This document shows, one piece after another, positions 12,261-44,237 of a stretch of 62,845 bases of DNA (positions are counted from its first letter, which is position 1; each line of letters begins with the position of its first letter). The stretch comes from a virus. A program made the position numbers and the translations under genes. The stretch covers positions 1-62,845 of the IMG/VR virus record IMGVR_UViG_3300005528_000064; one strand, 5' to 3'. The notes below the pieces were generated by a model. The model did not search any database, was not told the DNA's origin, and worked only from the letters and a program-made list of their open reading frames with translations.

Positions 12261-15200
12261 ATGGCACTGGACTTCTCAAAATTTGGCACTCCGGTAGAGC
12301 AGACACCTGTTCTGGATTTTTCAAAGTTTGGGACTCCAGTCCAACCACCCGAAAAGCAAAGCGCCTTCCGTCAGATTGCAGACGTACCGCTCGGCATAGC
12401 CAAGGGCGCTGTTCAAGGCGTTCGCATGATTGCGGACGCTTTTGGCGCTGGGTCTGACACATCCAAGACCATTAAATCTGCTGAGACGTACCTTGCAGAT
12501 TTGATGTCTGCCCAAGCCAAGAACGACCAGCAAGAGATCTCACGCATCATGAAGGATGCGGAAGACAAGGGTGTTCTAGATCAGGTCAAGGCTGGTATCA
12601 AAGCCTTCACCATTGCTCCGGTTGATACGCTGAGCAGTGCTCTAGGAACTGCTGCGCCCGTCATTGCCGGTGCTCTGGGTGCAAAAATTTTGGGTGCTGG
12701 GGCGCTTGCAACCACTGGTGTTTCAGCACTGACCGGCGCGGGCATGGGTGCTGGAACTATCAAGGGTTCCATCTATGAGGAAACCAAGAACGCACTGAAG
12801 GAAGCTGGTGCTTCTGAGCAGGACGCTGAGGCGCGGGCAAAACTTGCGCAAGAGTACGGCGGCAAGAATCTTGACCAAATTTTGTTGGGCACTGTGCTGG
12901 GTGGCGCTGCTGCTGTTGGCCCGCTGGAAAAGGGCGGTGCGGCAATTTTGGCCCGCAGGATTCTTGGCAAGACTGATGTTACTGAAACCGTAGCAGGGCA
13001 AGCGGCCAAGGGTGCTGTTCGCCGCCGCCTAGAAGCCGGTGCGCTGGAAGCGGCTCCTGAATTTATCCAGGCAGGGCAAGAGCAAGTAGCGCAGAACATC
13101 GCTCTTCAGCGGGAAGGGTTTGATGTACCTACGTTCCGTGGGGCAGTGAGTTCTGCTACGTTGGAAGGTCTTGCTGGTGCTGGGCTTGGTGCTACGGTTG
13201 GTGGGGGTAAGCCTGCTGTTGCCCCCGAGGTGCCTCCGCCAGAAGCGCCGCCAGCCCCTCCTCCTGCTGCGCTGGAGTACAAGCCAGAGCCCTTTATCCA
13301 GTTCCCCGATGGGACGGTAGCCAAGCGCTCTGAAGTAGAGGCGTACATCAAAACGCTTCCTGAAGATCAGCAAATGGCGATGCGGGCCAAACTGCTCGGC
13401 CTTGCTCCTCAAGAAGCAGAAGCACCCCCTGCCGAACCTACCAAAGCGCTGGAGTTCAAGCCTGAACCTCTGATTGTTTACCCCGATGGTTCTGTTGCCC
13501 GCAGTAGCGAAGTAGACGCTTACATCCAAAGCCTGCCGGAAGATGAGCAGATTGCTGCCCGCGCAAAATTGTTGGGCATGGGTGAGGTGGCTACCCGCGT
13601 TACGCCTGAGATGCTGAGAAAACTTGGCATTCGTGGGCGGGCACCTGTCATCCAGCGGTTGTCTGGACTTGAGTTGACCGACCCCAAGGTTACGGAAGAA
13701 CTGACAAATTTTGCGTCACAACCTTACGCCTCTCCCGAAGTACGTGGAAACATCTTTGGTTTCCTGAACACCATCAAGCCCGTTGAAGCGCCGGTTGCCC
13801 CGCCTGTTGAGCCTGCCGCCGAGGCACCCGCTGCGCCCGTGGCAGAGGCAGCAGTTGAGCCTAGCGTTGCGGAAGATAGTGAACTCGTAACTCCTGCTCC
13901 GGTGGTAGAAGCCGCTGCGCCTGTGGAGCCGCCATCAAGAAATAGCGAGGCGTGGCGCACAGAAGGCAAAACGCCCGAACAACTGATGGCCGATAAGGTT
14001 GAGTCTGTCAGTTCAGAGCTTGCTGCACAAATTGCAGATGAGGCATCTGCTCAAGATTTTTCTCCGAACGAACTGCCAACAGCAATTCAGCAGTGGGCAT
14101 CTGACGCCAAGATTCCCGCAGATGATCTTCGTTTGAGTGTTATCAAAGCACTTGATAAGTTTGATATCAGCGATGCTCGTAAATCGCAAGTAAAGAAAGC
14201 GCTGAGCCCACTGCGTGCCGCCCCCGCAGCACCCACTGTAGAAGCCGCTGCGCCCAAAGCAGAAGCGCCTACGACAAAGCCAGCAAAAGCTGCCGCTCTC
14301 CGCAAGCAGCCCAATACTGTTATGGGCTCAACCATGTTGGCCGATGTCAGCAATCGGCTTGGTGGTCTTGATCTGTCTCTGTTGTCTGAGTTCTCCACAA
14401 AATTTATCACCAAGCGCAAGGATAAGTACGGTCGCCCATTGACCATGTGGCGCAACCCGATGGTTCCAGGCGTTGGCACTCTGTTCCGCAAGGGAGGCGA
14501 GAGTGACTACGTTCTGATTGCAACTATGCTAGAAGAGGCCGGATACCTTGAGCCGGGTTCTGTTGAGCGTGATTACAAAGAAGCTGGTGAACGCGCCAAG
14601 GACATGATCAAGGCGGCGCTTAACCGTGAAGAAGTTTTAACGCTTGAGCAGCAAGAAAGTCAAAGGCAAACCGACGAAGAAGCAAACCGTCAGGCTTGGC
14701 TTGAGCAACAAGAAGAACTGAAGGCTGAGCGTGACAACGCAGCGCGTGAAGCTGGCTTGACGCCCTATGAAGGTGACTTGCTTACGGATGAAGACATTGA
14801 TGTGTTTGCGCCTGCTAAGCCGCAGACAGATGAGCAATACGCAGCAGGAATGCGTGGGCTTGGATTTGACGAAACGGAGATAGCAGATGCAGTCCAAAAG
14901 AAGCAAGAGAGAGAACGTGCTCAGAAAACTGCTTCAGGCCGACCCGCAGAAGCGAGAGCGGTTCCTGAAACTGGAGAGGGCACTGAGGGGCTTGAGAGAT
15001 ACACCGCCGAAGAAGTAACTCGTAAACAAGAAGAAGCTGAGAAAGCCGCTGCCGAGGAAAAGAAAGCCAAGGCCGCTGAGCAAGAGCGTCTTCGCAAGGA
15101 GCAGCAAGCCAAGGAAGAGAAGGCTCGTGCAGATGAGTCTGTGAAAGACTTTGAGCTTGGCAAGAGCGCAGAAGAACAGATGACCGGCATGGGCGATCTG

Positions 15201-18200
15201 TTTGCTGAGTCGCCCAAACGAGAGCCACGCCAAGGCACACAGAAGCAACTGGAAACGGCAGACGGCCACGCCAAATCAACTGGTGGCACTGTTGTCTATC
15301 AAGATGGCGACATTGCGCTATTGCGTGGCTTCTCCATGCTGACAGGTCAACCTGTCTACGTGGTTACCAACGGTGACTATCGAGCCAAAATAGACATTGA
15401 GGGCTACACGGGCAATCTTGTAACGCCCGCACAAAAAGCGGATCTTGTCAAAGTCAAACAAGAACTTGAGGCAGAAGACAAGGTTAAGTTTGATAAGGCT
15501 CCTAGCATCAAATTTACCGGTGGCCTTGCCACTTCGGCAAACGTAAGCCCAGAGATAGCAGGCATCGTTCGCGGGTGGAAAGACTTGCTTGGCCTCAAGC
15601 CCAATCTGTACATCACGACGATTGATGATGCCGTTGCTGACCGCAACAAATTTACCGGGCCGCACCGTGCTATTGGTTCTGCTGGCCTTGATGCCAACGA
15701 AGCGGGTCAAGTAAGGCGTTTGCCTAACGGCGACTACTACATCGCTTTCAAGAAAAGCACCAGCAAAACCAAGATGCTGGAAGTGCTGGCCCATGAATTG
15801 GGGCACATGCACGAGCGTGAAGTATTCAACAGCGCAGATTCAGACACCAAGAAGAAGATCCGTGAGGAGCATGACAAGTGGCTCATGTCTCAGCAAGGCC
15901 GCTCTGCCCGTGAGTTGGTCCAATCTCTCCGCGCAAAAACTACCGGCAAGACTACCCGTGTTGAAAAGGGTATGCCTGCGGATCAGATGACGCCGTACTG
16001 GAAAAGTTTTGGCGAGTGGTATGCAGACCAAGTTTCTCGCTGGGCAGTTACCTCCGAGAAGCCTGTCAGTGTGGTGGAGAAGTTCTTCAGTCGGCTTGCT
16101 CAGGCGCTGAAGTCTTTCTATTCCAAGATCAAGAACGCTGGCTATCTGCCTAACGAGACATTTGTTCAGTACCTTGAGAAGACCCATCAGCCCTCTGGGC
16201 ACGTTATCTCAACCGATGACGGCACTGCGCAGCAAATGCTTGGTGAAGTTAAGGCCGCGCCATCCGGCAACCCCGGAGAGCAGGCTATCTCCATCGTGAA
16301 CTCTCTTGGCATGGGAGTGAAGCCACCTGAGCCTGGGCGGTTTGAGAAGGCCAAGAAAATCCTGAAGGACGCCGGAGACAACCCGTCTCTCACGAAGGAA
16401 TCAGCCAAGAAGACTCTGACCAAGTGGTTGGACTGGTTTGAGACCACGGTGTTCTCAAGCGACTCTGCGTTCAACAACAAAATTAGGCGTGGCATCATCA
16501 GTGACTTCAAGCAGAACCCTGAAGTTTTGGGGATGCTGCTTGAGGCTAGTCAATCTCAGACTGTTCACGCTGACGCGCTTGCCAGCCAGTTCATGATTGA
16601 CGGCGGGCTTCAGTACAACGACGATCTGAAGAAGTGGGAATCCGTCAAGAAGGACGACAATTTTGTCGCCTTGGCTAAGAAGATTGAAGACCTAGCCAAG
16701 AAGTACAACGTGACGAAGGATGAGATGGAGCGTATTGCTCACACGTACTTCGTTGCCAAGAGACTGCCGGGGATCATCAAGCGCAACGAAGAGTTGGACG
16801 CTGAGATCAAGGCAGAGCGTGCCACGGCCAAGCCTGATCGTAAGCAGATTGAAGAGTGGGAATCCCTGAAGGTTTTCGTCTCTGACGAGCAACTGGCGAT
16901 GATGGAGCCGGGGCTGTCTTTGGCGAAGACCATTCCTGAACTCAAGGAAGTGGTAGACATCTGGCAGGGCATCCGCAAGAACAACATTGATGTGATGGTG
17001 AACAGTGGCCTGTGGTCGCCTGAGTACGCAAACGCCATGTGGGACAACATGGACTATGTTCCGTACTACCGTGAGGAACAGCTTGAAGAAGGTGCAGGCC
17101 CGCAAGAATTTATCCGTGGTCTTCAGGTCAAGTCCAAGGAGTTCAAACTGAAGGGCTCCGGTGCGGCGGTGAATGATGTTTTTGACAACATGATCCGCTG
17201 GAGCCAGTACGCCATGAACCGTGCGATACGGGCGCACAAGGCAACGCAGATGATTGACGCGGCGCTGAAGATCGAGGTTGACGGTAAGCCGATGGCAACC
17301 AAAGTCACGGAACAAAAGCGCGGCATGAACATCGTGCGGGCGTTCCGGGATGGCAAGCAAGAGTTGTACGACATGGCTGACCCCCTGTTCGTGCCGGCGT
17401 TCTCGTCTATCCAGAACGTTTCCATTCCTACCTTGACGTTCATGGCTAAGCTGGCGAACGTACTGAGACAGTCGGTGGTTCTGTATCCTCTGTTCTCTGT
17501 TGCCCAGGTTCCTCAGGATTCCTTCGCGGCGATGTTCTCGTCTGGCCTGAAAACACAGCACGCCCTGAAGATTCCGTACCTTGCGGTGAAGGAGTTTGTG
17601 AAGACTCTTTCCAAGACAAGCCAGACTCACAATGAACTGAAGCGGTTTGGTGTTGTGGGGGTGAGAGATTTCTCCGCTACGGTGATCCGCGATGACGCTG
17701 AAATTTACGCTGGCTTGAAGCCTCCAAAGGGCGGATGGGGCAAGACCAAGGAGTTCTTGGAACACATTGCTATGTCTGCTGACAACGCCGTGCGGCAAGC
17801 GGTGTATGAGGCATCCATGCAGCAAGGACTGAAAAAGTCCGAGGCTCTTGAGAAGGCGTTTGAAATCATCAACTTCCGCCGTCGCGGAACCAGCAAGATG
17901 CTGAACGTGATGGGTCAAACCGTCCCGTTCTTCTATGCTTACCTCTCTGCTCAGCGAGTTGCTTATCGTGTTCTGTCTGGGGTGGGTATCTCTCCGTCAG
18001 ACAGGAAGGAAGCACTGACTACCCTTGCCACTACGTCTGCTGCCGTGGCGGCTTTGTCTGTGATCTACGCGATGGCGAACGGGGATGATGAGGACTACGC
18101 AGAAACCCCTGCTGCTATCCGTGACCGGACGTTGACCATTCCGGGTTCAGGTGGGGTGCGGATTCCTCTGCGGCCTGACTTCTTCTTGTTCCCCAAAATT

Positions 18201-19019
18201 GTTGCCGAGCACACTTACCTGATGCTCAGTGACAAAGGATATGAAGACGGAGCAAAATTTAGGAAGTCAATGGCAGATGCGCTTCTCAGCGCTGTTGCAA
18301 GCCCGACACCGTTCCCCACGGCTATAAAGCCCGCCATCGAAGTAGCCATCAACTACGACTTCTTCCAGGGTAAACCCTTGATCGGAACCTTTGAGAAGCA
18401 GAAGGACGTAGAGCGGCAATTCCGTGATTCAACTTCGGAGTTGGCGAAGATACTTTCCAATGTGCCGTTGTCCTACAGCTTAGAAAAAGGCAAGTTTGAA
18501 GGGATGTCACCGATTGCCATAGATCACATGATCCGTGGCATGCTGGGTTCGTTCGGTGGCTTGGTTCTGTTTGGGACCAATCAGTTCTTGCACTCTGACC
18601 CTGACGTTCCAAGGCCGGAGATGTCAGCGAACGAGATGCTTGCTGCGCTGCCGGGTACGTCCGGTTTGCTCAAGCGCCCGCAAGAATCTGCCCTGAAGAA
18701 CGACTTCTTCGTACTCCGCGATGCAGTAGAGAAAGCGGCTAACACCTTCAACGACATCAAGACTCGTAGCCCCGAAGGGATTGAAGCGTTCTTGGAAGAC
18801 GAGAAGAACGCCATCCGTCTAGGCATGGCTAAGGGCGTTGACAAAATTAACAGGCACTTGTCAGACATCCGTAGAAGGATGACCATCATCACGAACATGC
18901 CTGAGAGCCAGATGCCTGCTGATGAAAAGGCGCAGAACATCCGAGAACTGAGGGAACTGGAGCGTGAAATTTTGCGCTCAGTGAACGTCAAGGAACTGCG
19001 GGAGATGGCGAAGATTTAG
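12261..19019 (+). CDS. Giant virion protein with zincin motif and LPD38-like C-terminal region
   Basis: 2252 residues, the largest gene. The N-terminus has two copies of LDFSKFGTPV. Hydrophobic Ala/Gly helices follow (about 125-175). Two 59-residue-spaced copies of a KPEP...YPDG...AYI-LPED-Q...RAKLLG unit start near residues 337 and 396. A Pro/Ala linker and a highly charged coiled coil (about 790-1000) come next. A zinc-peptidase motif HELGH is at 1178-1182, with GEWYADQ at 1251-1257 as a possible third-ligand region. The last ~600 residues, including FFYAYLSAQRVAYRVL, resemble the large polyvalent-protein-associated domain LPD38. Such proteins are thought to be injected with the DNA. It converges on, and overlaps by 32 bases, the minus-strand gene at 18988. 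Confidence 0.8.
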   Translation: MALDFSKFGTPVEQTPVLDFSKFGTPVQPPEKQSAFRQIADVPLGIAKGAVQGVRMIADAFGAGSDTSKTIKSAETYLADLMSAQAKNDQQEISRIMKDAEDKGVLDQVKAGIKAFTIAPVDTLSSALGTAAPVIAGALGAKILGAGALATTGVSALTGAGMGAGTIKGSIYEETKNALKEAGASEQDAEARAKLAQEYGGKNLDQILLGTVLGGAAAVGPLEKGGAAILARRILGKTDVTETVAGQAAKGAVRRRLEAGALEAAPEFIQAGQEQVAQNIALQREGFDVPTFRGAVSSATLEGLAGAGLGATVGGGKPAVAPEVPPPEAPPAPPPAALEYKPEPFIQFPDGTVAKRSEVEAYIKTLPEDQQMAMRAKLLGLAPQEAEAPPAEPTKALEFKPEPLIVYPDGSVARSSEVDAYIQSLPEDEQIAARAKLLGMGEVATRVTPEMLRKLGIRGRAPVIQRLSGLELTDPKVTEELTNFASQPYASPEVRGNIFGFLNTIKPVEAPVAPPVEPAAEAPAAPVAEAAVEPSVAEDSELVTPAPVVEAAAPVEPPSRNSEAWRTEGKTPEQLMADKVESVSSELAAQIADEASAQDFSPNELPTAIQQWASDAKIPADDLRLSVIKALDKFDISDARKSQVKKALSPLRAAPAAPTVEAAAPKAEAPTTKPAKAAALRKQPNTVMGSTMLADVSNRLGGLDLSLLSEFSTKFITKRKDKYGRPLTMWRNPMVPGVGTLFRKGGESDYVLIATMLEEAGYLEPGSVERDYKEAGERAKDMIKAALNREEVLTLEQQESQRQTDEEANRQAWLEQQEELKAERDNAAREAGLTPYEGDLLTDEDIDVFAPAKPQTDEQYAAGMRGLGFDETEIADAVQKKQERERAQKTASGRPAEARAVPETGEGTEGLERYTAEEVTRKQEEAEKAAAEEKKAKAAEQERLRKEQQAKEEKARADESVKDFELGKSAEEQMTGMGDLFAESPKREPRQGTQKQLETADGHAKSTGGTVVYQDGDIALLRGFSMLTGQPVYVVTNGDYRAKIDIEGYTGNLVTPAQKADLVKVKQELEAEDKVKFDKAPSIKFTGGLATSANVSPEIAGIVRGWKDLLGLKPNLYITTIDDAVADRNKFTGPHRAIGSAGLDANEAGQVRRLPNGDYYIAFKKSTSKTKMLEVLAHELGHMHEREVFNSADSDTKKKIREEHDKWLMSQQGRSARELVQSLRAKTTGKTTRVEKGMPADQMTPYWKSFGEWYADQVSRWAVTSEKPVSVVEKFFSRLAQALKSFYSKIKNAGYLPNETFVQYLEKTHQPSGHVISTDDGTAQQMLGEVKAAPSGNPGEQAISIVNSLGMGVKPPEPGRFEKAKKILKDAGDNPSLTKESAKKTLTKWLDWFETTVFSSDSAFNNKIRRGIISDFKQNPEVLGMLLEASQSQTVHADALASQFMIDGGLQYNDDLKKWESVKKDDNFVALAKKIEDLAKKYNVTKDEMERIAHTYFVAKRLPGIIKRNEELDAEIKAERATAKPDRKQIEEWESLKVFVSDEQLAMMEPGLSLAKTIPELKEVVDIWQGIRKNNIDVMVNSGLWSPEYANAMWDNMDYVPYYREEQLEEGAGPQEFIRGLQVKSKEFKLKGSGAAVNDVFDNMIRWSQYAMNRAIRAHKATQMIDAALKIEVDGKPMATKVTEQKRGMNIVRAFRDGKQELYDMADPLFVPAFSSIQNVSIPTLTFMAKLANVLRQSVVLYPLFSVAQVPQDSFAAMFSSGLKTQHALKIPYLAVKEFVKTLSKTSQTHNELKRFGVVGVRDFSATVIRDDAEIYAGLKPPKGGWGKTKEFLEHIAMSADNAVRQAVYEASMQQGLKKSEALEKAFEIINFRRRGTSKMLNVMGQTVPFFYAYLSAQRVAYRVLSGVGISPSDRKEALTTLATTSAAVAALSVIYAMANGDDEDYAETPAAIRDRTLTIPGSGGVRIPLRPDFFLFPKIVAEHTYLMLSDKGYEDGAKFRKSMADALLSAVASPTPFPTAIKPAIEVAINYDFFQGKPLIGTFEKQKDVERQFRDSTSELAKILSNVPLSYSLEKGKFEGMSPIAIDHMIRGMLGSFGGLVLFGTNQFLHSDPDVPRPEMSANEMLAALPGTSGLLKRPQESALKNDFFVLRDAVEKAANTFNDIKTRSPEGIEAFLEDEKNAIRLGMAKGVDKINRHLSDIRRRMTIITNMPESQMPADEKAQNIRELRELEREILRSVNVKELREMAKI

Positions 19020-19449
19020 CACGCTTACGGGCCTGCTTCATGTCTTCGTCAACAGCGGCCTTATGTTCTACCGCCTTTCCCTTCCACACATGGTAGATGC
19101 TGATCGCTAATTTTTGGCGACGGCCATCCTCGTTGGTCTTGACCACAAGCCCAGCGTCAACAAGTTTGTTCAGATACCTGCTGAAGTTTGCGGAGTCCAT
19201 ACCGATCTGGTCTGCCATCTCGCGCTGACTGGCTTCAATCTTGTTGTGCCAATCGCAGTTCATGAGAAGCGCCATCCACACGCGCAAAGTGTTGCCGTCA
19301 AATTTACGGGCCAACAAAACTTGCCATGCTTCATTACTGACTGCAAGCCACATTTGGAAACCTACCTTGTGTTGCCTTGGCGTGTAGACCGGGACACCTT
19401 CAACAATCTCTCCAGTGTCAAGGTCAATGGTTGCAAAGTTCCTGCGCAT
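18988..19449 (-). CDS. RepL/MarR-like winged-helix protein under SOS-type boxes
   Basis: 153 residues. The centre (about 35-110) is a winged helix: FDGNTLRVWMALLM, ASQREMADQIGMDSANFSRYLNKLVDAGLVV and a basic wing. It resembles plasmid RepL initiators and MarR-type regulators; which of the two cannot be told by eye. A basic Lys/Ser/Pro tail follows. It is the last gene of the leftward block and converges on the giant virion gene. Its ATG is 8 bases downstream (in transcription direction) of two LexA-like boxes with an overlapping promoter, so it probably has its own damage-inducible transcript. Confidence 0.72.
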   Translation of the reverse strand: MRRNFATIDLDTGEIVEGVPVYTPRQHKVGFQMWLAVSNEAWQVLLARKFDGNTLRVWMALLMNCDWHNKIEASQREMADQIGMDSANFSRYLNKLVDAGLVVKTNEDGRRQKLAISIYHVWKGKAVEHKAAVDEDMKQARKRAKSSPSPAVP

Positions 19450-19457
19450 GTCAAGCC

Positions 19458-19542
19458 CTGTAGGTTTATACAGTGCGCATTGTAGCGGGCTACAGTAGGA
19501 AAGTGCAAGTTTCCCTCTATAACCCTTTTTTTCCCTCTATAT
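19458..19542 (-). promoter_or_regulatory. Leftward promoter with tandem LexA-like boxes
   Basis: Read on the minus strand: a -35-like TTGCAC (19508-19503), an 18-base spacer and a -10 TACAAT (19484-19479). Two SOS-box-like palindromes lie over and after the -10: CTGT-N8-ACAA/TTGT-N8-ACAG at 19480-19495 (7 of 8 conserved bases) and CTGT-N8-ACAG at 19458-19473 (8 of 8), their centres 22 bases apart. Upstream is a direct repeat TTTCCCTCTATA (plus-strand reading) at 19510-19521 and 19530-19541, 20 bases apart, of unknown role. Confidence 0.6.
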
Positions 19543-21485: not shown

Positions 21486-21676
21486 ACTGCCCCCTTATCC
21501 ATCATGTGCATAGCCTTACGCACGGCGTCGGTCAGATTGAGCCATTCGTTCCAGCCCACTGCCTGGAAAAACTCCACCTTGACCGCTGAGTCGTCAACGG
21601 CCACCACTGTTGCAACGAGGCGGTCGTTCTCCTTGTCAACGATCTCGATGCGGGTTGGTTGAACGGATAGTTTCAT
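21482..21676 (-). CDS. Hypothetical small protein
   Basis: 64 residues. It looks like a small beta barrel (IEIVDKENDRLVATVVAVDDSAVKVEF) with a helical C-terminus. ATGA overlaps link it to both neighbours. No family recognised. Confidence 0.6.
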   Translation of the reverse strand: MKLSVQPTRIEIVDKENDRLVATVVAVDDSAVKVEFFQAVGWNEWLNLTDAVRKAMHMMDKGAV

Positions 21677-21966
21677 ACGTTCACCTTCTGGCTAACGATC
21701 ATCTTCTCCAGTTCACCTACCAAGTGAGCCGCTATGGTTACCCCATCCACACCGATGGACTGGCACCATTGATCCTGCTCAACATGGGAGATCATGTCCC
21801 GAACTGCTTTGTTGTAGCCGCCGTTGAAGGAGTCATCACCTTCAATGATCATGGTGATGGCATCCCGAACCAAGGCCGATGCCTTGCGGCTACCAGCGGC
21901 CTCCTTCAGTTTGTTGTAGATGTCCTCCCGGAGATGAACCGAGTACGGGACTAGCCTTTTTTCCAT
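21673..21966 (-). CDS. Ribbon-helix-helix DNA-binding protein
   Basis: 97 residues. VPYSVHLREDIYNKLKEAAGS-KASALVRDAITMII is a typical Arc/CopG-type ribbon-helix-helix: one strand followed by two helices. Such dimers bind short palindromes and regulate phage or plasmid genes. The C-terminal half is helical. It is encoded inside the recombination operon and could regulate that operon; no target can be assigned from the sequence. Confidence 0.7.
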   Translation of the reverse strand: MEKRLVPYSVHLREDIYNKLKEAAGSRKASALVRDAITMIIEGDDSFNGGYNKAVRDMISHVEQDQWCQSIGVDGVTIAAHLVGELEKMIVSQKVNV

Positions 21967-30339: not shown

Positions 30340-30525
30340 ATGAAAAATGCAATGATCCTGAGTGCCGCGATTCTGTTGACCGGCTGCGGCTGGTTTGACC
30401 GCCAAGTGGCAACGGCGACCGGCTATGCCCGTGTGTGCGTGGATGGTGTTGAGTACCTGCAATTCACGAGCGGTGCGACTGTGGCCTACACACGAGACGG
30501 CAAGGTAAAGACCTGCGGCATCTGA
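30340..30525 (+). CDS. Small lipoprotein
   Basis: 61 residues. A short charged start, a hydrophobic stretch and the lipobox LLTGC (Cys16) form a lipoprotein signal. The mature part is only ~45 residues with two more Cys (ARVCVDG, VKTCGI). Phage-encoded lipoproteins often block superinfection at the envelope; that role is possible but unproven. AAGGAGAAGG lies just before the start. Confidence 0.75.
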   Translation: MKNAMILSAAILLTGCGWFDRQVATATGYARVCVDGVEYLQFTSGATVAYTRDGKVKTCGI

Positions 30526-34342: not shown

Positions 34343-35080
34343 ATGAAAACTTGTACTAAGTGTAAACAAGAGAAACCGTTTAGTGAGTTTCATAAAGATA
34401 AAACATCAAAAACAGGGTTCAGATCACGATGCAAAGTTTGTTGCGCGGAAGATAGTTCAAATAGATACTATGAAAATCCACAAAAACACATAGCAATAGC
34501 GCGCAAATGGCAAGATAAAAATAAAGAAAAAGTAGTGGCAACCAGAAAAGCACGCTACAAAAACAACAAAGAAAAGTTAAAAGAAGTTAGTCGTAAATAC
34601 AGAGAACAAAACCCAGATAAAACATGGGAACACAATAAAAAGTATTACGAACAGAATAAGGAGAGAGAAAAACTTAGAGCAAAAATATATAGGCAACAAA
34701 ATCCTGACAAAGTTAAAGAAATACAAAGATCCTATATTTTAAGAAACAAAGAAAAAGTTAAACAAGCAAGACTAAAGTACAAAAAAGAAAATCCTGAAAT
34801 ATTTAAAAGAATAAATCAGAACAGAAGAGCAAGAAAACTAGCATCAAATGGCAAGTTATCTTCTGGGCTGGCGCAAAAGTTATATACGCTGCAAAACGGC
34901 AAATGCGCTTGTTGTAAGAAGCCTCTAGGTGACAACTACCATATGGATCACATCATGCCATTAGCACTGGGTGGATCAAACACAGATGACAACATTCAAC
35001 TTCTTAGGGCGCAGTGCAATAACCAAAAATACAGCAAGCACCCTGTAGATTTCATGCAGGAAAGAGGCTACCTGCTTTAG
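34343..35080 (+). CDS. HNH endonuclease, AT-rich insertion
   Basis: 245 residues. An N-terminal zinc finger (CTKCKQEKPFSEF, C-VCC) is followed by a long Lys/Asn/Glu-rich helical region with repeated YREQNPDK and KYKKENPE units. The C-terminal HNH has CACCKKPL, HMDHIMPLALGGSN and CNNQK. Base composition is far more AT-rich than the flanks, which marks recent transfer of a free-standing homing endonuclease. The 87 bases before it hold a direct repeat GGTTCATCATGA (twice), the second containing its ATG. Confidence 0.85.
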   Translation: MKTCTKCKQEKPFSEFHKDKTSKTGFRSRCKVCCAEDSSNRYYENPQKHIAIARKWQDKNKEKVVATRKARYKNNKEKLKEVSRKYREQNPDKTWEHNKKYYEQNKEREKLRAKIYRQQNPDKVKEIQRSYILRNKEKVKQARLKYKKENPEIFKRINQNRRARKLASNGKLSSGLAQKLYTLQNGKCACCKKPLGDNYHMDHIMPLALGGSNTDDNIQLLRAQCNNQKYSKHPVDFMQERGYLL

Positions 35081-35088
35081 GGCAAAAT

Positions 35089-35280
35089 CTAGTGCTTCCC
35101 AGCACTCAGGGTGGGCATGTCCACCGTGAAGATTTCGGGGTGCTGCATTTCCAGATAGGACAGATGCCCCAAAATTTGCAGGCCGAGCGCCAGGACTTGC
35201 TCATCCCGGCCCACGGCATCTGATCGAATCGTGATCTGGTCACCCTCTTGTACGAGGGTAATTGTGACTAGCGTTGTCAA
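35089..35280 (-). CDS. Hypothetical small protein
   Basis: 63 residues from a TTG at 35280 that overlaps the upstream TGA (TTGA). LVTITLVQEGDQITIRSDAVGRDEQVLALGLQILGHLSYLE suggests a beta hairpin followed by a helix. It converges on the HNH gene. The weak start makes this call moderate. Confidence 0.5.
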   Translation of the reverse strand: MTTLVTITLVQEGDQITIRSDAVGRDEQVLALGLQILGHLSYLEMQHPEIFTVDMPTLSAGKH

Positions 35281-35441
35281 TTGCAAGTCACATCGCACCG
35301 ACGAAGAGCCCCACTTCCGTAGCAGCACTCAGAGCAGTAAACGGTGCGACCGTTCATCGTCATGGTGTAGTACCGGCACGAATAGGCCAGGGCAGCAGTG
35401 GCGAAGAGGGTAGCGGCGAGGAAAGCGACAGTCTTTTTCAT
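35277..35441 (-). CDS. Small secreted Cys-rich protein behind SOS-type boxes
   Basis: 54 residues from the ATG at 35441, with CAGGAG six bases upstream. MKKTVAFLAATLFATAALA is a clear signal peptide with predicted cleavage after Ala19. The mature peptide of 35 residues has six Cys (22, 36, 39, 40, 49, 53), so it probably folds by disulfides in the periplasm. Two strong LexA-like boxes lie upstream. The function is unknown; an envelope-acting or host-interaction role is a guess. Confidence 0.68.
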   Translation of the reverse strand: MKKTVAFLAATLFATAALAYSCRYYTMTMNGRTVYCSECCYGSGALRRCDVTCN

Positions 35442-35504
35442 GGGATTCTCCTGTTTGCCGAAAGTGGCAGTGAATGTTGCCATGCCTTAGCGTGTAGTGC
35501 AACA

Positions 35505-35584
35505 CTGTGAATTTTTACAGTGTGTCTACTACTCCAAAATGGTGGAAGTAGGAAACCGTTCGGCAATACTGTAAATTTTTACAG
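35505..35584 (-). promoter_or_regulatory. Two strong LexA-like boxes
   Basis: CTGTGAATTTTTACAG at 35505-35520 (inside the 22-base palindrome ACACTGT-N8-ACAGTGT) and CTGTAAATTTTTACAG at 35569-35584 (8-base arms around TT). Both fit CTGT-N8-ACAG exactly. The second covers the stop codon of the HNH gene at 35579. On the minus strand a weak -10 TAAAAA lies inside the first box. They are best placed to control the secreted Cys-rich gene at 35277. Confidence 0.68.
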
Positions 35585-36157
35585 TGGTCGCCAATCCGTT
35601 TGGTCCCAGTTCCCTTTGCCGTGGTTGCACTCATGGCATAGAACTTGAAGGTTATCAACGTCCAAGGCCAGATGGGGGAACAATTTTCGGGGCTTGATAT
35701 GGTCAACGTGGATGACTGCGCCTGTTGCGGGAGTAGCGCCGCAGCATTGGCAGCGGGCACCGTACTTCTTCAGGGCCACCATGCGCGTCTTGCGCCATTC
35801 ATATGTGGATAGAAACTCAGTAGTCGTGACATCAATACCGGCAACCGTTTGTGGTGCCAGCTTGGTGCTCAATGCCTTGGATTTCCTTGGCATCAACCCC
35901 TTGGCGCGGCGCTCCGCAAGTTTTGCTCGGTGCTTCTGCCGTTTTGTCAGTTTTTTCTGAACTGGCTCCACTACAGCGGGCGCTTTCTTTTCAACGACAG
36001 GAGGAACTTTCGCCGCAATCTTCGCCTTGCGTTCTTCCTTCTTCTTGATGTCTTTTGCAATACGAGCGTTGGCTCTAATCTTTGATAGGAAAGCCCGCCT
36101 TCTTTCTGGCGTGGCTTTCTGCCATTCTTCAGACTTGAACAGGTCTTCTTCTTCCAT
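35579..36157 (-). CDS. HNH nuclease with basic N-terminal region
   Basis: 192 residues. The first ~110 residues are charged and Lys/Ala/Pro-rich (coiled coil and linker). The HNH domain has RCQCCGA, HVDHIKPRKLFPHLALDVDNLQVLCHEC-HGKGN, complete with two CxxC pairs and the catalytic His. Its ATG is 3 bases after the RepL-like stop, so they share an operon. Phage HNH proteins next to replication or packaging genes can be nicking enzymes; here it might nick near the iterons, but that is conjecture. Confidence 0.82.
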   Translation of the reverse strand: MEEEDLFKSEEWQKATPERRRAFLSKIRANARIAKDIKKKEERKAKIAAKVPPVVEKKAPAVVEPVQKKLTKRQKHRAKLAERRAKGLMPRKSKALSTKLAPQTVAGIDVTTTEFLSTYEWRKTRMVALKKYGARCQCCGATPATGAVIHVDHIKPRKLFPHLALDVDNLQVLCHECNHGKGNWDQTDWRPL

Positions 36158-36159
36158 CG

Positions 36160-36684
36160 TTACTCAGCCGAGACAGAAATGCTCCGGCCTTCCTCTGAGT
36201 ATTCAATCTGCATCTTGATCTTCCGCAGATCGTTGAACTTGCGGCGGTTCTCCAGCACTCTCGGGTCAGTACCTACCGCAAAGATATGAGGGTCAATCAT
36301 GTAGACGCCATTGACCACGCGCATGAGCAGGCCGCTTCCGATGAGTTCCCGCGTGGCGTTGTAGATCACTTGGTTCTTCAGGCCGGTGCGCTCCGTGATT
36401 TCCTTACGCTCTACCGGGGTGATGATGACATGGTTCTGATCGTCTCTGACCATCGAACCAAGTTCAATGAACAGAACCATCGCAGACCGAGACAGACCGT
36501 AGAGTCGGCATAGGTCAGCGTAGAACATTTTGGTGAACGTCAGATGCGTAGCACCTTCCTTGCGCGTCACCTCTTTGACAACCTCGGTTGCCCGCAAAAT
36601 TTCGCCCGTCTCGGCGTCAGTTGTCAGCGTCCGCTCCAGGCTACTGTAGACCGCACGGGCTTGCTTGCTCATCACATCACGCAT
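36160..36684 (-). CDS. RepL-like winged-helix replication initiator
   Basis: 174 residues from the ATG at 36684, which has AGGAGG five bases upstream. FTKMFYADLCRLYGLSRSAMVLFIELGSM, ERKEITERTGLKNQVIYNATRELIGSGLLMRVVNGVYMIDPHIFAVG follow the RepL/IncFII-type winged helix, including the conserved NxY-F-G-like end. Five 19-base iterons lie ~90-180 bases upstream, and an extra half site overlaps its -35. It probably starts phage replication at the iterons and represses itself. It is distinct in sequence from the winged-helix protein at 18988. Confidence 0.75.
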   Translation of the reverse strand: MRDVMSKQARAVYSSLERTLTTDAETGEILRATEVVKEVTRKEGATHLTFTKMFYADLCRLYGLSRSAMVLFIELGSMVRDDQNHVIITPVERKEITERTGLKNQVIYNATRELIGSGLLMRVVNGVYMIDPHIFAVGTDPRVLENRRKFNDLRKIKMQIEYSEEGRSISVSAE

Positions 36685-36702
36685 AACTACCTCCTGATCT
36701 GG

Positions 36703-36732
36703 ATGATAGCATCTAACGGAAAACAAGTAAAG
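36703..36732 (-). promoter_or_regulatory. Promoter of the RepL-like gene with iteron half site in the -35
   Basis: Minus strand: -35 TTTACT (36732-36727), 18 bases, -10 TATCAT (36708-36703), then AGGAGG and the ATG at 36684. The -35 region TTTACTTG is the conserved half of the iterons at 36771, which suggests autorepression. Confidence 0.5.
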
Positions 36733-36770
36733 ACCTACTGAAGTCATCTACTCAAAAATGTATACGTTTA

Positions 36771-37111: not shown

Positions 37112-37471
37112 TCACTTTTTCGCTAGTTCCCTGCCGTGTCTGTGCAGTTCATCTTTTATGTAGGCCAATCCTTTCCTGCCCATGTTGGGGATACGGAGGA
37201 CTCTGTTCTCTGTCATGGAGCACAGTTGGTCAATCGTCCTTACGTCCTCAAAACGCAGGCAGTTCAGAACTCTGCAGGGCAAGTCCAGATCGTCAACCAT
37301 AACGTCAATTTCGGCTTGCGTTTCTTCCTTGGCCTTGAGAAATGCGACTTCTCTCTCGTATTCCTGCAGCATTTTGTAGGCAAGCTGGACGCGGAGGTGG
37401 ACCCCTCCCGTGCTCGCTGGCGCTTGGCCGTGCATCATGGTGAACAGTTGCCAGAGTCGTTCTTCGTTCAT
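37112..37471 (-). CDS. RNA polymerase alpha C-terminal-domain-like protein
   Basis: 119 residues from the ATG at 37471, two bases after the upstream stop. The N-terminal half is helical. Residues about 58-117 (VDDLDLPCRVLNCLRFEDVRT, IDQLCSMTENRVLRIPNMGRKGLAYIKDELHRHGREL) follow the bacterial RpoA C-terminal domain (VDDLELTVRSANCLKAE..., LLKTPNLGKKSL-EIKD-L) in order and spacing. That domain binds UP-element DNA and activators. A free copy could redirect or compete with host transcription. It is the last gene before a strong terminator. Confidence 0.75.
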   Translation of the reverse strand: MNEERLWQLFTMMHGQAPASTGGVHLRVQLAYKMLQEYEREVAFLKAKEETQAEIDVMVDDLDLPCRVLNCLRFEDVRTIDQLCSMTENRVLRIPNMGRKGLAYIKDELHRHGRELAKK

Positions 37472-37472
37472 G

Positions 37473-37724
37473 TCATACCCCAATTTTGTTGAGGAAGTTC
37501 CGCGCCTTGGTCAGCCGTGCGCGGTCCATGCCGACGTCACCATGCTCAAGGATATGAAACGCCAGGGAGTCCACGACAGAGCGCAGATGCTGCTCCAGTT
37601 CATCGCGCTCGGCTCGCAGTTCTTTGAAAGCGATGTTGTCGCGGGCGCGGGCCTGCTCCAGTTCGATCACGCGGTCGATTCCGTTGCGGGCGATATCAAT
37701 TACGCCCTGAACACCAGTTTCCAT
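37473..37724 (-). CDS. Hypothetical coiled-coil protein
   Basis: 83 residues from the ATG at 37724, with CAGGAG six bases upstream. It is helical and charged (DRVIELEQARARDNIAFKELRAERDELEQHLRSV is the kind of heptad pattern seen). The region just upstream (37742-37758) is a truncated copy of the terminator stem at 37085. Function unknown. Confidence 0.6.
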   Translation of the reverse strand: METGVQGVIDIARNGIDRVIELEQARARDNIAFKELRAERDELEQHLRSVVDSLAFHILEHGDVGMDRARLTKARNFLNKIGV

Positions 37725-42013: not shown

Positions 42014-42130
42014 ATGTATAAACGTACAGTGCGAGTGCTGGTGCGGTGCCGGAGCCCGCCCGCAGTGAGCGAAGCGAGCAGCAGTCTCTTGCATTCCTCA
42101 TCTGTTCCCCTATACTGTATAGAACCCCAG
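42014..42130 (+). promoter_or_regulatory. Candidate late promoter with LexA-like boxes
   Basis: Plus strand: -35 TTGCAT (42089-42094), 16 bases, -10 TATACT (42111-42116). The box TACTGT-N8-CCAGTA (core 42115-42130) overlaps the -10 and differs from the SOS consensus at one conserved base. A second box ATGT-N8-ACAG is at 42014-42029, also one mismatch. The promoter faces the terminase-small-like gene at 42145 and thus the whole late operon. Confidence 0.55.
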
Positions 42131-42144
42131 TAGGACAAACACCT

Positions 42145-43552: not shown

Positions 43553-43933
43553 ATGAACAAGTGGCTTGACAGAAGAATTTCAGCGCCGGGGCCGTATCTC
43601 ACTTTGTGTTTAAGTGAGAAGGAGTATGAGGGTGCTATGAAGGCGCTGAAGGTCAAGCACTACGGTCCGTGGATCTCTACGCCGCAGGCATCTGCGACGA
43701 CGCACAACTTGAGTAATGAGGATGGGAACCTGTGTGCGGTGGTGTGCTTAAGTGACTATGCTGGCCGAAATCCCGTCGAAGTAGCAGGGCTTCTGGTCCA
43801 TGAAGCAGTGCATGTGTGGCAGGAGTACTGTGACTTCTACGGCGAGAAGTTTCCTGGCCGTGAGCAAGAGGCGTATGCAGTGCAGTCGCTGGCGCAAGAA
43901 CTGATGGCAGAGTTTGCGCGGCGAAATGGATAA
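43553..43933 (+). CDS. Zincin-like metallopeptidase-fold protein
   Basis: 126 residues. VEVAGLLVHEAVHVWQEY has the HExxH zinc motif (HEAVH, near residue 83), followed by GEKFPGREQEAYAVQSLAQELM with a Glu in the right place for a third ligand. Small proteins of this type are common before phage terminase genes, with unknown substrate. Its leader repeats the GCTAAGTTGTTGATTT element seen before the Lar-like gene. Confidence 0.72.
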   Translation: MNKWLDRRISAPGPYLTLCLSEKEYEGAMKALKVKHYGPWISTPQASATTHNLSNEDGNLCAVVCLSDYAGRNPVEVAGLLVHEAVHVWQEYCDFYGEKFPGREQEAYAVQSLAQELMAEFARRNG

Positions 43934-44006
43934 GAAGTGGCGCACGAAGAAGGTATTGCAGAGTCCTCTGAGGAAGGTGTATGGGTCCAAGGAGGAGGTA
44001 TTGGAG

Positions 44007-44237
44007 ATGGGGATGACTGAGGCTCAGAAGGAAGTGTTTTTGGCTATAGATGTGTGGTGGTGCCGGTTTGGGTACGGCCCGAGTCTGCGGAACATTTGTG
44101 AGTTGAGGGGTAAGCCTGGGCTTGGGAGCACGAAGAAGATCGTGGATAGGTTGGTGAAGCTGGGTGCTCTCAAGAGGGTTGAGGGGATGGGAAGGTCTGT
44201 GCGGCCGACGTACATCAGCTTTAGGAATATGGAATGA
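44007..44237 (+). CDS. Stand-alone LexA-type winged-helix DNA-binding protein
   Basis: 76 residues from the ATG at 44007, chosen because GGAGGAGG lies eight bases upstream; an ATG at 43926 would add 27 residues and overlap the previous gene. MTEAQKEVFLAIDVWWCRFGYGPSLRNICE, GSTKKIVDRLVKLGALKRVEG-GRSVRP matches the LexA N-terminal domain in order (TARQQEVFDLIRDHI...G-PPT-AEIA, SP-AAEEHLKALARKG, SRGIR). The S24 protease half and the Ala-Gly cleavage site are absent. Its stop overlaps the TerL ATG. It may bind the LexA-like boxes of this genome, or serve as a small-terminase-like DNA binder. Confidence 0.78.
   Translation: MGMTEAQKEVFLAIDVWWCRFGYGPSLRNICELRGKPGLGSTKKIVDRLVKLGALKRVEGMGRSVRPTYISFRNME

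Follow-up and report, generated by a model that had tools for sequence, protein, structure and literature searches.

The locus examined here raises the question of which protein reads a LexA-like palindrome standing before a small cysteine-rich peptide gene in a phage, and of what that peptide would do. It lies on the virus record IMGVR_UViG_3300005528_000064, a 62.8-kb contig that encodes terminase, portal and head proteins, all 62,845 nucleotides of which were analysed and are referred to as the window. A first-pass annotation had reported two LexA-like palindromes 64 bases apart, together with a 54-residue ORF with a signal-peptide-like start and six cysteines in 35 residues. Both observations were borne out, in that the palindromes are exact and their ACTGT-N8-ACAGT form is commoner than chance would give, and the ORF has an ATG at 35441, an A-L-A motif and conserved cysteines.

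Organization of the cassette

On the minus strand, a RepL-like gene is followed in order by an HNH gene, the distal box, the proximal box, a putative promoter, the peptide gene and a 63-residue gene:

36160..36747, minus strand: RepL-like winged-helix protein (PF05732, 2.8e-7, above the cut-off)
35579..36157, minus strand: HNH endonuclease gene, upstream of the cassette (PHROG HNH families, best 5.9e-20)
35569..35584, minus strand: distal palindrome, CTGTAAATTTTTACAG (minus strand CTGTAAAAATTTACAG)
35505..35520, minus strand: proximal operator-like palindrome, CTGTGAATTTTTACAG (minus strand CTGTAAAAATTCACAG), exact ACTGT-N8-ACAGT
35497..35502, minus strand: -35-like TTGCAC as read from the sequence, two bases downstream of the proximal box
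35474..35479, minus strand: putative -10-like CAACAT with TGG before it (extended -10), spacer 17, with a predicted start site
35448..35452, minus strand: ribosome-binding site AGGAG (CGGCAAACAGGAG preserved in nearly all leaders)
35277..35441, minus strand: 54-residue exported-type peptide, a 19-residue signal-like segment and a 35-residue mature part
35089..35280, minus strand: 63-residue second operon gene, its TTG start overlapping the peptide stop

The CTGT-N8-ACAG core of the LexA (SOS) box is exact at both the proximal and the distal position, which lie 64 bp apart start to start with 48 bp between them, and the distal box includes the TAA stop codon of the upstream HNH gene. The 16-bp pattern alone is not rare in the window, where four exact sites were counted against 1.24 expected (at least four in 38 of 1000 simulations). 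The 18-bp form ACTGT-N8-ACAGT occurs exactly at 35504-35521 and 35568-35585 and nowhere else in the window, two copies where 0.06-0.07 would be expected (3 of 1000 simulations reached that number), and a 16-mer pair less than 100 bp apart arose in 2 of 1000. The distal box matched E. coli TACTGTATATATATACAGTA at 16 of 20 positions and the proximal box at 14 of 20. A further site at 37210, within an alpha-CTD-like gene, was taken as chance. We regard conservation among relatives, described below, as stronger evidence for the box than these simulated odds.

Downstream of the proximal box, the minus strand reads TG, TTGCAC, 17 bp, CAACAT, AGGAG (35452-35448) and the ATG at 35441, which is the most likely peptide start. 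The -10 of this promoter matches at three of six positions, and a consensus scan found no promoter above threshold at the cassette, hence the promoter would be weak; the proximal box appears to abut the -35 of such a weak sigma-70 promoter. If transcription starts 7 bp after CAACAT, as we presume, the box centre lies at approximately -45, a position that beside a weak promoter would suit an activator as well as a repressor. A simple scan of 35000-35700 found no terminator-like site.

The peptide had been proposed as the only well-placed target of the boxes, a view that overlooked the 63-residue gene (35280..35089) with its TTG start overlapping the peptide stop. This gene is also located 3' of the peptide in many relatives, and its product had no PHROG match. 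The HNH gene is likely to be mobile; in the related contig L025 the RepL-like gene stands directly before the box and the HNH gene is absent.

Conservation and exchange of the cassette in relatives

Relatives were retrieved from IMG/VR by peptide, profile and DNA-pattern scans, yielding approximately 20 related contigs with the same box and leader. DNA patterns that include the half-sites force these in some of the contigs found; peptide-based scans, which are free of this bias, gave the same half-site conservation. A leader-only pattern found one contig and was too strict to be useful.

The CTGT and ACAG half-sites were invariant in the peptide-type leaders, whilst the N8 centre took several forms (AAAAATTC, AGAAATTC, AAAGAATC and AAGAAATT, with ACGGAATC in peptide-less relatives), as would be expected if a dimer reads CTGT/ACAG. 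They were also kept in the peptide-less L234 and L236, both found with a half-site pattern and L234 by another search too. The distance from box start to ATG was 78-80 bp in most relatives and 77-82 bp across the peptide-type relatives, and TTGC, the extended -10 (CRTG-NN-AMCAT, even where the remainder of the leader diverges) and the CGGCAAACAGGAG segment were likewise preserved. At least six different upstream contexts stop right at the box, and the upstream stop codon falls within it in the window and in L034 (the HNH gene), as well as in L006, L007 and L011 (another gene). Since half-sites and ATG spacing are kept whilst the centre and the upstream genes change, the proximal box is very likely a functional operator that borders an exchangeable promoter cassette.

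What lies downstream also differs. In L021 (7387-7644) the same box and leader precede a different gene (MTNLTINGIEYTP..., MTNLTINGIEYTPVKP...), cut by the contig end, whilst in L221/L234 (a 51-kb contig) and L236 the box stands directly before the 63-residue gene and both peptide and leader are absent. In the more distant phage G023, a ParB-like gene is preceded by CTGTACAAAATTACAG, again with the TATTGC tail, and by TAGAAT at 17-bp spacing, and the prophage-like contigs L226 and L233 have the same palindrome and TATTGC tail before an XRE-type repressor gene. These XRE cases warn that the half-sites would not be unique to LexA and do not name the binding protein. With a promoter of its own (as predicted from the DNA), exchangeability, different upstream genes and a peptide that may be present or absent before the 63-residue gene, the cassette appears to be a moron-like exchangeable promoter unit able to serve other genes.

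The earlier proposal of paired boxes stands in so far as both are exact in the window, but conservation in other phages extends to the proximal box only, no relative having the distal one as a second box. L034 has a single box, which is of the distal type and immediately follows the HNH gene; in L033 and L236 the segment that follows the distal box is present without that box. The distal box resembles a junction left by recombination through TATTGC.

A family of exported-type six-cysteine peptides

The 19-residue signal-like segment ends in A-L-A (an A-x-A site), and the 35-residue mature peptide has its six cysteines in the arrangement C-x13-C-x2-CC-x8-C-x3-C. Altogether 25 distinct mature sequences could be aligned gap-free within this pattern, with 12 positions invariant, namely the six cysteines and T9, T14, E19, G23, G25 and R28. 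The median pairwise dN/dS was 0.21 over 408 pairs, an approximate value given that the pairs are non-independent and the median dS is 1.1, and the peptide is under purifying selection. Most of the precursors read had, by rule, the Sec/SPase I design of a basic start, a hydrophobic stretch and an A-x-A site, and are predicted to be exported. No lipobox, in which Cys would follow L/V/I at -3 and G/A/S at -1, was present; in the main types the first cysteine is preceded by AYS, QAN, QAE or YAS.

AF2 modelling with the 25 sequences produced three beta strands (pLDDT 90, pTM 0.46). A fold search with the 35-mer returned no match with E < 0.001; the best viral structure match in BFVD, A0A6J5M8Q5 (49 residues, 44% identity over 34 columns, TM 0.69, E 0.079), is a likely relative of the family. 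This protein of an uncultured Caudovirales phage is named 'lipoprotein', whereas the peptide family members read have no lipobox. Assignment to a known family was rejected, there being no Pfam match of note and only a weak PHROG match (phrog_21551, 1.1e-4), covering residues 2-36 and thus partly the signal segment. Searches of GenBank phages and plasmids gave no significant match, and the peptide was not found in 84,980 GTDB genomes. Another small exported-type protein may be encoded at 30340-30525 (plus strand), a 61-residue ORF with the lipobox LTGC and a weak match to the phage lipoprotein family PF24052 (0.012).

Peptide homologues occur in three other phage contexts without the box, comprising an operonic group (L104-L116 and L123), a group with another leader (L045-L055) and L056/L136. 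These homologues, together with the two contigs in which the box precedes the 63-residue gene only, argue against a general damage-induced peptide. A dedicated pair of LexA and peptide would be too narrow a picture, as the box seems to serve other genes and the peptide family exists without it.

Lifestyle and host

The ORFs scanned, a non-exhaustive set, included no recognisable integrase or CI-type repressor, and the phage is probably a virulent tailed phage. Relatives of its large terminase (TerL) include that of the lake phage DSL-LC04 (55%), for which a Pseudomonas host and a virulent lifestyle are predicted (PMC10611076). Neither tRNA nor near DNA matches indicated a host, and the only TerL match in bacterial genomes was to a Geobacteraceae MAG (55%). 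Elsewhere in the window, only residues ~1526-1909 of a 2252-residue ORF at 12261-19019 (plus strand) resemble proteins of 54-65-kb phages, PTXU04, CF418P1 and Pag-Yong1 among them, and a 97-residue ORF at 21673-21966 (minus strand) is ribbon-helix-helix-like by eye, with no Pfam match.

Candidate binders of the box

The box has the form of the 16-bp CTGT(at)4ACAG site of beta- and gamma-proteobacterial LexA (PMC3108266). It shares with SOS boxes of these bacteria the CTGT-N8-ACAG arrangement, the AT-rich centre and the location at a promoter, and differs from them in lying beside rather than over the promoter and in that the central AT alternation is not retained. LexA of a host of this type is the best candidate binder, at a likelihood we would put only slightly short of even. 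Several points weigh against it: SOS control would be unusual in a lineage whose relative DSL-LC04 is predicted to be virulent, the box centre at approximately -45 beside a weak promoter also fits an activator, and the XRE-type repressor genes of L226 and L233 stand behind the same palindrome.

Three further features of the window bear on a binder encoded by the phage itself:

18988..19449, minus strand: RepL/MarR-like winged-helix protein (MarR_2, 6.7e-7)
19458..19473, minus strand: exact CTGT-N8-ACAG, CTGTATAAACCTACAG, adjoining the start of the 18988-19449 gene
43914..44237, plus strand: LexA-DBD-like protein of 107 residues, directly before the TerL gene

The proteins of 18988-19449 and 36160-36747 share a TGE-type N-terminal motif and are likely RepL-like winged-helix paralogues within one phage. 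The former is a candidate box binder or box target, and its homologues in G001 and G002 also have an exact box just upstream, in repressor-like positions as in the window; G001 and G002 are nearly identical at this box and make, with the window, two independent cases. The 43914-44237 protein matched PF01726 at E 3.6e-4 and 20.7 bits, below the curated 23.7, and by Pfam matches the DNA-binding domain only, the S24 protease domain being absent. LexA chains were among the top folds for its moderate model (Z 5.5-6.2, 57-61 residues, 22% identity), a range in which unrelated folds also score. Homologues with 49-100% identity are present in 80 IMG/VR contigs, and the GSTKKIVDRL helix is strongly conserved among them.

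Control by the 18988-19449 or the 43914-44237 protein, as an activator at approximately -45 or as a repressor/activator, is the principal alternative to host LexA, and we consider it possible yet doubtful. The weak -10 (3/6) and -35, with no consensus promoter found, would suit it, as would the exact boxes before the winged-helix gene and the presence of the LexA-DBD-like protein in all nine box-bearing records that reach TerL. There are also precedents. GIL01, a temperate Bacillus phage under host LexA control, encodes gp6, a truncated LexA homologue (PMC6182141, PMC4551915) that activates late genes (PMC6182141); it likewise combines LexA-type boxes with a phage-encoded LexA-DBD-like protein, whereas the candidate found here matches the domain weakly (20.7 bits) and occurs independently of the box. 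At Mu Pm, Mor binds at -43.5 (PMC4390567), and the two promoters share 5-bp inverted repeats, a short element near -44 and a weak or missing -35; the spacer is G/C-rich in Mu and AT-rich here, and the likeness is one of geometry. No Mor match was found among the ORFs scanned.

The phage candidates nevertheless fit less well than host LexA, because the winged-helix homologue was not found in the 51-kb G015, which keeps the cassette box (the contig may be incomplete), and because the LexA-DBD-like protein is uncoupled from the box and varies in its recognition helix. It also occurs in G016-G022 without an exact box, which is weak evidence against it as several of these are fragments of 13-29 kb, and the GSTKKIVDRL helix is replaced by SRANVHRIMN in G023, which also has the box at a promoter, whilst the half-sites stay constant. 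Boxes are moreover not enriched elsewhere in these genomes: a phage-wide CTGT-N8-ACAG regulon was rejected, since counts outside the cassette hardly exceeded a reversed-pattern control.

Other candidates were set aside. A 123-residue protein at 37112-37483 (minus strand) has an RNA polymerase alpha C-terminal domain (PF03118, 3.9e-16), in which what we take to be the equivalents of E. coli R265, N268, G296 and K298 appear by eye to be kept; it was rejected as box binder, not being found in 11 related records tested (several of them fragments). The small terminase gene is preceded by box-like sites (42014, 42102 and 42115), which were also rejected, as an alignment of nine leaders keeps TGTTCCCCTATACTGTA... 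and not the dyad, with an exact box only in G008. The TGTTCCCCTATACTGTA element itself (42102-42135, plus strand) is invariant in the nine leaders and is probably a promoter or operator.

Discussion

The reading we prefer is that of a LexA-controlled, moron-like cassette whose exported peptide acts at the envelope or in superinfection, although as a whole it is held tentatively and at rather less than an even chance. The cassette would comprise an operator, a weak sigma-70 promoter and a leader, followed by one small gene or two. LexA of a beta- or gamma-proteobacterial host would most likely read the operator and hold the promoter down until DNA damage during infection. The peptide would then leave via Sec and, under the oxidising conditions of the periplasm, form a small three-stranded sheet stabilised by disulfides; there it would most likely target the envelope or incoming phage (superinfection exclusion), like T4 Spackle. 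The data establish the palindrome with its placement and conservation, the gene order and modularity, and a cysteine-rich family with signal-like starts under purifying selection, and conservation marks operator and peptide as functional elements. We infer that LexA is the binder, that timing follows the SOS response, that the peptide is exported with its disulfides paired, and that it has the superinfection role.

Periplasmic superinfection exclusion is the peptide role that we favour, by a working analogy with Spackle, likewise a small phage protein acting in the periplasm (PMC7677548); our model is three-stranded beta, and the analogy implies no sequence or fold relation. A role outside the cell or in lysis, bacteriocin-like or lysis-aiding, is unlikely. 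LexA boxes are typical of colicin genes, and the peptide is small, exported-type and cysteine-rich; its neighbours, however, include no recognised gene for lysis, release or immunity, and the family is spread over several phage contexts, the majority of them lacking the box. It is likewise improbable that a lytic lineage runs the peptide via its own protease-less LexA-like protein, or via competition of that protein with host LexA, as an SOS-style switch uncoupled from damage. Improbable too is a box that serves chiefly as a recombination seam, where unrelated genes are joined at a brief stretch of common sequence and regulation is fortuitous or residual, for although the upstream contexts stop exactly at it, some with their stop codon inside, and the distal box resembles a junction product, simple homology would not keep a dyad whose centre varies whilst both half-sites and the promoter spacing stay fixed, and the box recurs before the ParB-like gene of the distant G023 with the same spacing to the -35.

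The combination described here is new, as is the unnamed peptide family. A compact exchangeable promoter unit is joined to a family of at least 25 distinct six-cysteine exported-type peptides that is common to different phage groups. If LexA reads the box, a probably virulent lineage would use the damage sensing of its host to time an envelope protein, and not to time exit from lysogeny.
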